From NCBI RefSeq assembly GCF_050624435.1, contig NC_134537.1, positions 120,455,586 through 120,519,585 on the forward strand: a DNA stretch of 64,000 nucleotides, in the 5' to 3' direction. The translations under genes and the position numbers were made by a program. Under the pieces are notes generated by a model. It made no database searches, was not told the DNA's origin, and saw nothing but the letters and a program-made list of their open reading frames with translations. Source of the stretch: Tenrec ecaudatus. Lineage: Eukaryota; Chordata; Mammalia; Afrosoricida; Tenrecidae. How positions within the stretch are numbered: position 1 is the first letter of the stretch; each line of letters opens with the position of its first letter. Below are positions 3,280 through 56,666 of this stretch, piece by piece.

Positions 3280-3364
3280 TAGGCTGCTGCTGCTTTTGCT
3301 TTGGGAGCCGAGTTCAAGAAATAAGCAAGGCAGCTAGCAAAGCTCGGGGCTCCCCGCAAACTCC

Positions 3365-3470
3365 TGTGTGGGCAGGGGGAGCTGGGGCGGGGGCGGGGGC
3401 AGGGGAAGGTGGGACGAGGGTGGGGGCAGGGGAAGCTGGGGTGGGTGCTGGGGCAGGGGCAGGGAAAGGG
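3365..3470 (+). repeat. G-rich minisatellite in the retrocopy 5' end
   Basis: Irregular repeats of GGGGCAGGGG, GGGGCGGGGG and related units replace the expected start-codon region of the MLLT3 copy. Runs of four or more G suggest possible G-quadruplex formation on the plus strand. Overlapping Gly/Arg-rich or Pro-rich frames here are compositional artefacts. Confidence 0.75.
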
Positions 3471-3673
3471 AAAGCCAGGGCGGGATCTGGGGCAGAAGAA
3501 ACCCTCAGTGGGAGGCTTCCCCCAGGAGGCGATGGTGTCTGTGCGCAGGCCTGAGCGTAGCAACAAACACAGTGCTTGGTGGAGAAAGCCGTTTTTTACT
3601 TGAAAGCTTTCGTGTGCAAGGTCCCACCGTGCAAAGCAGAAGAATCTGGGTTTGCTGGTTTCATTTTGCCGCC

Positions 3674-3857
3674 GATTGAGGTTTCTTTCTTTCTTTCTTT
3701 TTTTGAATCAGACAGGAGCAAACAGGATGTTGCGAGTCCTGCTCACAAGGAGACGCTAATCACGTATCATGAGAGCTCCGATCATCATTTTATCTCTGTT
3801 CTCCAGAAGGAGGAACAGGTAAGGATTAACCTTACTGACGATGATTGAGGTTTCTTT
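3674..3857. repeat. Target-site duplication around the U8 insertion
   Basis: GATTGAGGTTTCTTT occurs at 3674-3688 and again at 3843-3857. Read on the minus strand, the right copy sits at a TT|AAAA site, the L1 endonuclease consensus. The two halves of the interrupted MLLT3 frame meet exactly at this duplication. Confidence 0.92.
3706..3842 (-). pseudogene. SNORD118: Retroposed U8 snoRNA (SNORD118) copy
   Basis: Read on the minus strand, this 137-bp segment starts ATCGTCAG and has the U8 blocks AATCCTTACCTGTTCCTCC, a box C-like ATGATGA, ACGTGATTAGCGTCTC and a 3' end TGCTCCTGTCTGATT that includes box D (CTGA). Vertebrate U8 is close to 135 nt, so the copy is full length. U8 is a C/D-box RNA needed for 5.8S and 28S rRNA maturation. 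On the minus strand the 3' end is followed by an A-rich tail (3689-3705), and the whole is flanked by a 15-16 bp duplication, so it arrived by L1-type retroposition. It carries many substitutions and brought no promoter, so I call it a pseudogene, although boxes C and D remain. Confidence 0.9.
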
Positions 3858-5924
3858 TAAGAACAAGGAAGAACCTAAGGAAGTTTGATTGGATTATGAC
3901 TTGTTCCTGCATCTTGAGGGCCATCCACCTGAGAAACTGTCAACAACCGCACCTAGGAGTTTAGAAGAAAGTTGCTGGGGGCGGGTGGGGACCCTACTAG
4001 GAGAGATTGCACCAGCAGCAGCGGCAGCGGCAGCAGTAACACCCAGTGGACAAAGCCTCACATGTTAAGGAATGGGCACAAGGAACAACCTTCTACAGAC
4101 CCCAGAGAATAGGAGAGGGCCTTCAATGAACCTTCCCGGGATCGCAACAAATCTCCCAAAAATTCCTCTGAGAAACCCCAAGAAAACAAACCACCGAAAG
4201 AAGAAAAAAAAGTTCCTAAGATGGCCTGGACACTGGTCCACGTCACAAGAACCCCACCTCGACGGGCACTCGCTGTCCATCACCAGCGGACAAGAAGGCG
4301 CCCAGGAAAGGCCCCATTTCAGATTCTGAGCAAGTCTCGGGCAACAGAAAGGACAAAGAGCAGCTCGAAGGTTCCTTTCAGATCCCTCTAGCCGCCACCA
4401 TCATTGATGCCCACTGGTTCTGCTGACAACAAGCACACAGCTAAAAGACAAATCCCCTGTCACGGTGGGAAAGGTCAACATAGAAAGGGAGCCATCGGAG
4501 GAGGAGAAGAAATCAACTTCACCTTTTGAGGATGCCGTCGTGGCTCCTCCCGATGACTGAGGAAGGAGACCGTTCCCTGCAAATCAGATTCCCAACAGCC
4601 GCCGCTGCCCGTTCCAGCTCCCGAGAGCCGTGCGGCCTCCGGACAGCTCTGCACCCCCTGACACGGCGACACGGCGACCCGAGGGGGAGTCCCATGAGGC
4701 CGCAGAGGAGGACGGTGCCTCCGAAGTGGAGAGACCTGCGACTGGAGGGGGCAGAGCTTGCTCGCTGGCGTGATGGCAGCCACCGTGAAAGCAGCCCTGC
4801 GCCTTTCCCCCATCACCGTATTGAAATCCACCAGGAACCCGATTCTTGAAGTGAACAGTCCGACACAGCGAAACAAGTCAGAGAAGCAAATAAGAGTGGC
4901 CAAGGACCCGCGGACCTGCTTGCAGCGGTAGGGCCGCCCAGGACGTTAGTGGCGCTGAGCAAAAGACGCATTCTGCCACAGATTGTGAGCCTTCTGGAAG
5001 AAACTGGACACTTTCTTATCACGGACACATTTCATTTTGACCTGGCCTCCTTGGACAAAACGACAGTTCGTAAACTACAGAATTACCTGGAAACATCTGG
5101 AACATTCTGAGGACACAACCGAATGCATCACATACTGTTGGGGTTTGGGGCGTCTGCTTGGTCTTTTTTGGGCGGGGAGGGGGCGTGGTTTGTGATTGTG
5201 TGTGCGCGTGTGTGTTTGATTCTTTATATGAGCAACCGAAAGGGGGAAAAGCAAAAACCAAACAACCTTCAGCTTTACATTTCTTTAAAGCCAGCCACGA
5301 TCTCTTGATAAAGCAGAGGGCGCGCAAGCCACACCCTTCTCTCGGGGAAAGCCCAGGGAAGAGTTAGCCTGCGTAGCCCGACAACAAGCCAACCAGAACA
5401 CAAGGCAACTGACAGACTGTGTGTGGTTTCATGTCTCTAGCTGTGGTGGTGCATTCCACAGGATGAACTCATATCAACACTTCACCCTATTACATAACAG
5501 ACCTATTTATTATCACATACAGATATCTGGAAGTTGTGGACGGAATGACACCACCAGACGTTATAAGCAGGTGGCCCCGTGGATGCTTTTTCAATGAACG
5601 TCCTTGCCACCCCAAGCCTAGTGACCTTACTCGTACGTCATGCCGCTTCCCACCAACTTTTTCAAGTCCTTAACTCATCGCAGTCTGCATTTTCTAACTT
5701 CATTCTCACTCCCCTCTCCCTCAGGCCTCCCCCCAGTTCCGGGACACATGTTATGAACTAGAGAGAGAGGAAGCGGCGCACCAAATAGCCCCCACTGATT
5801 TTCTTCTTTGTGGTCTTTTTCCTAAAAGTGTGGCCAGTTCTTGGCTTGTATCCATGTAATGATCTTGGACTATGGTAGAAAATGCACCAAATAGGATCAT
5901 ATAAATTCCTGTCTGGCCTTAGTC

Positions 5925-5930
5925 AATAAA
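5925..5930 (+). terminator. Poly(A) signal of the MLLT3 retrocopy
   Basis: AATAAA about 15 bp before the A-rich tail (5945-5965), marking the end of the retrotranscribed mRNA. Confidence 0.75.
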
Positions 5931-5989
5931 CTTGTAGGACTTTTAAACAAACAAACAAAGACAAAGAATAGTCTTAATGGGGAGTTGGA

Positions 5990-55889: not shown

Positions 55890-56285
55890 TTTTTTCTTAG
55901 GAAGTTCAATTTTTATTTGGTGGGTACAAGTGGGGCAGTGCACAGAGCTACCAAGGCCTTTATGAATGCAAGGCCCACACTTCTCTGGGGTCCACAGTTA
56001 GGGATGTTTTTGACACCACAGTTAACCAGAATGAGGTGCTTCATAGCCACCATGTCCTCAAACTTATCCACATGAAACCTGGTGACGCCCTGTTTCTTGG
56101 AGATGTGGATCTTCTGGCACCTAGGGAACTTGAACTTGGCCCTGAGCAAGGCCTCAGTCACATGCTCCTTGACTTTGATTTGAAGCTTGGTGTGGATGGA
56201 CATGATGACCTGGCCAATTTGGAGTCTAGCCACTATGCCTTGAAGCTTCCCCAAATACCTTGCATCCCAGTTTGGAGCCTAGTTT
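55890..56285 (-). pseudogene. RPL10: RPL10 processed pseudogene, 5'-truncated
   Basis: RPL10 encodes uL16, a 60S subunit protein needed for late subunit maturation. The minus strand encodes its C-terminal 40 percent: [18 protein letters not shown], then [30 protein letters not shown] and [11 protein letters not shown]. These match the family's [36 protein letters not shown] and CGVKYIPNRGP blocks. A 3' UTR with AATAAA (complement of 55912-55917) and a poly(A) (T-run at 55890-55896) follow. The frame has insertions and a lost stop, and it continues into the UTR (113 codons), so it is not functional. The full protein is about 214 residues. An RPL10L parent is less likely but not excluded. Confidence 0.92.
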
Positions 56286-56666
56286 AGGGAGAGCAGAAAT
56301 TAGCCAGGCCAGAGCCATCAAAAAGCAGCAAAGTGTTGTCTCCAAGGTCCCTTAGGGCAACCCATACCTAACAACAGGCTGCGTATACAACAGAGGGGGC
56401 TTGCTGTTTGCAGCCACTGCATACCAGCCCCCACAAGGAACAAGTTTTCTATTTTCATACTTTCCAATAATCATTTATATCAATCATTGTATCAAAAATA
56501 AGCAGAAGAAAAAACAGTATAAACAAAGTAGAATCAGAGCCTAAACGCAATTCTTAAAACAGTCAAGTTCAATCCTTGTCTAACTTACTTTAATCCTTAT
56601 CTAAACTATTCTATTGATACTAAATATGCCTTTAGGCCTCTGGATGAATCAAGCCAGTCCCAGGCT

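Follow-up and report, generated by a model that had tools for sequence, protein, structure and literature searches.

The analysed window, a stretch of 64,000 nucleotides from the genome of Tenrec ecaudatus, contains a young copy of the U8 snoRNA (SNORD118) nested in an older, dead copy of MLLT3 (AF9). We regard it as nearly certain that this insert goes back to a SNORD118 transcript that would have been trimmed, A-tailed and copied by LINE-1 into an old MLLT3 retropseudogene. The initial annotation had proposed two stacked retroposition events at this place, and in this respect it was borne out by the analysis.

The U8 insert is a full-length retrocopy that occupies positions 3706 to 3842 on the minus strand, with its +1 position at 3842 and its TGATT end at 3706. 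In the Rfam scan of the window, U8 (RF00096) was matched at 3707–3841 (minus strand) over model positions 1–135 of 135, with 135.6 bits (cut-off 41) and an E-value of 2.1e-25. Addition of the +1 A (3842) and the final T (3706) to this span gives a length of 137 nt. The identity, the 137-bp length and the reverse orientation that had been claimed for the insert were thereby all confirmed, and so was the survival of box C (ATGATGA) and box D (CTGA), both of which are intact with respect to what we take to be the canonical motifs. The only other Rfam match above its cut-off in the window was one SNORA70, and a permissive scan added solely a sub-threshold snoR35. In comparison with the parental gene, the copy showed 0 differences over the 136 nt compared (136/136), and the DNA search aligned the parent with it over 137 nt at 100%. 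The copy starts with A +1; none of the adjacent upstream bases matches those of the parent, and the directly adjoining 3′ flank shares one base with it.

The parental gene (L010, C84:85207675-85207809) carries no tail and no significant duplication. New in our analysis is that it sits downstream of TMEM107, 856 bp from the last coding exon and on the same strand, as placed with a protein sequence that we assume to be that of TMEM107. In a functional SNORD118, a PSE is expected near −55, and with what we take to be the PSE motif, a PSE-like element was found in L010 at −62 to −43. The 3′ flank of L010 (CTGACGAT) and the 5′ end of U8 (AUCGUCAG) are complementary, and the predicted pairing of 3′ extension and 5′ end amounts to −10.9 kcal/mol for the parent vs −0.6 kcal/mol for the window copy. 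Because of the TMEM107 neighbour, the PSE-like element, the pairing 3′ flank and the lack of both tail and duplication, L010 was taken as SNORD118. The available part of a review describes a predicted pairing of the pre-U8 3′ extension with the 5′ end, and it also mentions a TMG cap and a promoter predicted for SNORD118 (PMC8993069). In combination with the PSE-like site of the parent, this supports the earlier statement that U8 has its own promoter.

On the insert strand, U8 is followed by one C and then by an A-rich tail (AAAAAAAGAAAGAAAG; 3689–3705, minus strand, read directly from the sequence). The tail itself (3689–3704), which had been noted correctly before, consists of A7 followed by GAAA units, and the A7 begins two bases past TGAT. 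The preceding C at 3705 mismatches the 3′ flank of the parent (TTTCTGACG) at the same place and could be a mutation or an untemplated base. The 3′ copy of a target-site duplication (GATTGAGGTTTCTTT on the plus strand) lies beyond the tail at 3674–3688, and the copy 5′ of the insert lies at 3843–3857. These 15 exact bp, within the range of LINE-1-type duplications (approximately 7–20 bp), are present just twice in the window. An exact match of at least 15 bases was reached in 3 of 5000 random placements of the same geometry, and the best score among 1560 mismatched flank pairs was 13 vs 15 for the window insert. The 5′ flank reads CTTAAAAGAAACC on the insert strand and contains a TT/AAAA-type endonuclease site (CTTAAAAG; CTTA/AAAG upstream of the insert). 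Of the proposed 15–16 bp duplication at a TT/AAAA site, the 15 bp stand exactly, whereas TT/AAAA fits only with a 16-bp duplication that includes one mismatch, as the 15 exact bases begin one A later. A full-length copy that starts at +1 without the 5′ flank of its parent, with a tail, a duplication and a TT/AAAA-type site, bears the mark of LINE-1-type copying of an adenylated RNA. Assignment to the tailless, 3′-truncated class of retropseudogenes was rejected, since the copy reaches 135 of 135 and carries a tail.

The host of this insert is an old, spliced MLLT3 retropseudogene on the plus strand (3496–5951, 5′ limit uncertain), which runs from the YEATS part to the end of the 3′ UTR and is interrupted by U8. 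A tblastn search with what we take to be the AF9 protein, whose YEATS and AHD parts are backed by PDB matches, gave matches at 3496–5104, and AF9 is spelled by three reading frames of the insert flanks. When the insert and one copy of the duplication were removed, as had been suggested, the AF9 reading was restored across the join; the resulting peptide matched AF-9 chains in the PDB (5.8e-22) and, less well, ENL (6.4e-19). The C-terminal part of the host matched the AF-9 AHD in the PDB (4.2e-18). In Pfam, AHD scored 53.6 bits, above its cut-off of 27, and YEATS scored 21.1 bits, slightly under its cut-off of 22. The functional MLLT3 gene lies in the same genome on the minus strand of C84 (20.09–20.21 Mb) with its exons apart. 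At 3867/3868 (plus strand), the host reads AACAAG/GAAGAACC without an intron, and the functional gene has AACAAG/GTACGT (L091) and CCCAG/GAAGAACC (L085) approximately 16 kb apart. It is at this junction that intron removal is established, and together with the PDB matches it substantiates the earlier description as a spliced AF9 copy. The AF9 matches lie in different frames, with stops, and in the three regions that could be aligned by BLAST, 13.4%, 15.1% and 18.6% of the ungapped positions differ from the parental MLLT3. The host ends approximately 15 bases past AATAAA with an A-rich tract. A duplication of at least 7 bp flanking the MLLT3 copy was looked for and not found, as would be expected if the copy is old. 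Another locus (L088, C80:143968403-143968547) matches only the 3′ end of the MLLT3 copy and is 90% identical to the host end in the window. At the 5′ end of the host, G-rich imperfect repeats were seen by eye at 3343–3480, and these possibly derive from the MLLT3 5′ region.

Elsewhere in the window, self-comparison revealed an element at 82–236 with one partner, and a SINE near 1–280 resembles the AfroSINEs, which would fit an afrotherian mammal. The SNORA70 match (56334–56458) lies within a segment at 55897–56458 on the minus strand, in which it is followed by intron-like sequence, by RPL10 exon sequence at 56254–55988 (71% identity over 89 aligned residues with a protein that we take to be RPL10) and, approximately 415–435 bp past SNORA70, by a polyadenylation signal and an A-rich tract. 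To judge from its sequence, this segment seems to go back to an RPL10 pre-mRNA that was retrocopied when only partly spliced. Macaque and mouse SNORA70 copies have been described with an unexplained 3′ consensus of approximately 490 bp plus poly(A) in the available text of PMC2832892, and this consensus may be the same RPL10-type sequence.

Within the tenrec genome, the U8 insert is one of many. At least 31 U8 loci were found with the covariance model, and the DNA search gave 41 matches at 40 places (two of them from L038), so that the detected loci comprise the parent and 39 others, the window copy among them. Since scoring was limited to the best candidates and the model has a bias towards full-length copies, these counts are lower bounds and the fractions given here are not unbiased. 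Of the 31 model-found loci, only L009 besides the window copy was identical to the parent over 136 nt; 28 others differed from it in 2 to 48 alignment columns. An A run at the 3′ end, defined as at least five A's beginning at most 10 bases from the U8 end (end points were set by hand for L029, L035, L036 and L037), was present in 34 of the 40 loci. All 23 loci with a significant duplication, i.e. a score at or above the 99% level of the 1560 mismatched flank pairs, also had an A run; in 21 of these 23 the duplication starts with A, and alignment into the A tail inflates the count. By the A-run rule, six loci were without a run, namely the parent L010, L015 with its AAACAAAC-type tail, L017, L035, L081 and L083. 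The last four had neither an A-run tail nor a significant duplication by these family criteria and are only candidate retrocopies, not demonstrated ones.

The position of the tails was more uniform. Among the 30 non-parental model-found loci, L035, L036 and L037 stop short of the U8 3′ end, and in 24 of the 27 that extend to it, the tail began 1–3 bases past TGAT. The bases between TGAT and tail were T in 12 copies, TT in 10, TTT in two and TTTCTG(A) in one (L030); the remaining two were the window copy with TC and L017 with GA and no tail. In L030, 6–7 nt beyond TGAT follow the genomic 3′ flank of the parent before the A's begin. Nine extra partial loci (L075–L083) include five that are 5′-truncated and tailed (L075, L076, L077, L079 and L082) and four that lack both ends, of which L078 and L080 have A runs and L081 and L083 do not. 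In L077 four and in L082 five T's precede the A's after TGAT, and the parent has three, followed by C; the extra T's may be added U's or mutations. The 3′-truncated L036, L078, L037, L080 and L083 stop near two places, GUGA and CAGGAC(U). A's adjoin four of these five ends directly or nearly so, directly in L036 and L078, and L083 leads into GAAA-type repeats; those of L036 may be target-site sequence rather than a tail. These five loci may go back to decay intermediates that had been adenylated, or some of them to insertions without a tail. A further observation concerns the loop at U8 positions 36–37, which in the window copy and L009–L038 mostly shows TTCT, TTTT or TCTT. The TTCT variant is shared by the current parent, the window copy, L009, L018 and the diverged L035, and the variants suggest changes in the source gene or its alleles over time.

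Two readings that would alter the nesting order or the status of the insert have to be weighed at this point. If U8 had already been part of the MLLT3 mRNA from which the pseudogene arose, it should be found in the functional gene as well, a check that had also been called for initially. However, exon L091 of the functional gene is uninterrupted at this site, by which a U8 insert inside functional MLLT3 was rejected; an insertion there would moreover disrupt the YEATS domain. In addition, 0 of the bases compared differ between the insert and its parent, as against 13–19% in the host (mismatch fractions of 0.134–0.186 in the three aligned regions). No point in favour of this order was found, and we consider it next to impossible. 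The insert is thus young, because all 136 of 136 bases are identical to the parent. A search of the assembly for an empty allele of the host yielded the window itself as the sole full match; the parental exon and the restored frame nevertheless point to an empty site before the insertion. The window U8 could also be a second working U8 gene, to which its identity with the parent and its intact boxes C and D would lend some credit. Against this, its adjoining flanks share 0 bases (5′) and one base (3′) with those of the parent and are unlike the PSE-bearing parental flank, the pairing 3′ extension is missing (−0.6 vs −10.9 kcal/mol) with the 3′ flank unpaired, and the copy lies antisense within a dead pseudogene. 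A second gene is therefore very improbable. As the copy is antisense and without the parental flanks including the promoter region, it is most likely inert, and expression from it would most likely be absent.

With regards to the young retrocopy that we favour, U8 RNA would have been transcribed from SNORD118 downstream of TMEM107 and trimmed to approximately its mature 3′ end, after which a short A tail would have been added. LINE-1 proteins would have acted in trans on the tailed U8 by target-primed reverse transcription, with insertion at a TT/AAAA-type nick in the already old, spliced MLLT3 retropseudogene, and the product would be an antisense insert with a 15-bp duplication and without the flanking and promoter sequence of the parent. 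In this course of events, we infer both the LINE-1 machinery as the copying agent and the tailing of U8 before reverse transcription. Since 24 of 27 tails start 1–3 bases past TGAT, the template was probably a U8 RNA to which A's had been added near the mature end. From tails that begin at or near the mature 3′ end one cannot conclude, as was done initially, that the RNA taken up was non-polyadenylated; adenylation before reverse transcription explains their positions more simply, if not exclusively. An idea that A-tailing is special to U8 was dropped. The same genome contains 45 U3 loci, of which 20 (L094–L113) were examined with tails judged by eye; four were gene-like (L095, L096, L098 and L113), and at least 14 of the 16 others showed an A-rich stretch directly at the 3′ end or close to it (none in L111, ambiguous in L112), so tailing is not peculiar to U8.

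Nor is tailing a universal rule, because only 3 of 25 recent human and chimpanzee ncRNA retrocopies had poly(A) and the other 22 were untailed, according to the available text of PMC2912911. For those three, template switching has been proposed (PMC2912911), and likewise reverse transcription could here have begun on the poly(A) of a different RNA, LINE-1 or otherwise, before the enzyme jumped to the U8 3′ end. In human cells, snoRNAs are reported to be transiently oligoadenylated by TENT4A/4B. The same work places U3 and U8 in one class with the snRNAs, whose tail is as a rule just one A and showed no significant response to knockdown of TENT4A/4B; longer tails were found on snoRNAs whose processing was incomplete (PMC12811392, available part). 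The typically mono(A)-tailed state of this class speaks for a template switch, and the overall pattern suits L030 better than the majority of copies, which counts against a simple tailing reading. TOE1 is described as not limiting for the 3′ ends of U3 or U8 in the accessible part of PMC7328512. However, the junctions gather at the mature U8 end (24/27), at most a base or two separate U8 from the A-rich tail in those 24, and the tail of L030 joins inside the genomic 3′ extension. Although junction positions of this kind remain compatible with a jump to a free 3′ end, we judge template switching to be unlikely.

With adenylation before reverse transcription as the preferred account, the U8 retrocopies could be a fossil record of germ-line U8 3′ ends, mostly approximately mature, once a 3′-extended precursor (L030) and in a few cases shorter forms near GUGA (L036, L078) or CAGGAC (L037, L080). 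We put this forward tentatively, with our confidence slightly short of even. If it is true, junction maps may read the past adenylation of capped snoRNAs across mammals. The window locus alone matters little, as a clean young LINE-1-type copy of a small capped RNA in an older retropseudogene, but its insert is useful as a presence/absence marker. The 39 non-parental U8 loci are somewhat more useful, as their tail junctions may record adenylation sites.

For comparison with known systems, mammalian small nucleolar RNAs are reportedly mobile genetic elements, as the title of a work by Weber has it. The MLLT3 host resembles processed pseudogenes of protein-coding mRNAs in being intronless and in having an A-rich tract after the polyadenylation signal. 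A literature search on U8 pseudogenes and retroposition, which was not exhaustive, found no work devoted to U8 retrocopies, and in one study pseudogenes were masked (PMC8058046, available part). Many dispersed copies of independently transcribed snoRNAs are found for U8 and U3 in mammals alike (PMC2832892; PMC5967550 on U3; both in their accessible parts). In macaque, 13 U8 and 50 U3 loci are annotated (PMC2832892, Table 2); the table, as available, gives annotated counts only, whereas the 40 tenrec U8 loci were scored for tail, duplication and junction.

Comparable to the window insert are the snoRNA retroposons (snoRTs) and snoRNA retrogenes of mammals such as SNORA76b and SNORA24b of macaque, with which it shares poly(A), duplication and T2A4 nick site (PMC2832892, available text). 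The two macaque examples are H/ACA RNAs and carry sequence 3′ of the snoRNA, whereas U8 is a C/D RNA with its own promoter that was copied from its own start to approximately its own end. With the tailless small-RNA retropseudogenes, the window copy has LINE-1-type insertion and target-site duplications in common, but those are 3′-truncated and without a tail, and it is full length and tailed (PMC2912911, available part). LINE-1 copying of snoRNAs in general is published, and in chimeric insertions small capped RNAs such as U3 are likewise carried by LINE-1; unlike these chimeras, the window U8 leads directly into the A-rich tail and the duplication, with no LINE-1 sequence attached (PMC13174262, as far as its accessible text goes). 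The event is also less special than the initial annotation had implied, given 39 other U8 loci in the genome, the parent included, and the snoRNA retrogenes already known (PMC2832892). The window insert is a standard A-tailed snoRNA retrocopy and an ordinary case of a known process.
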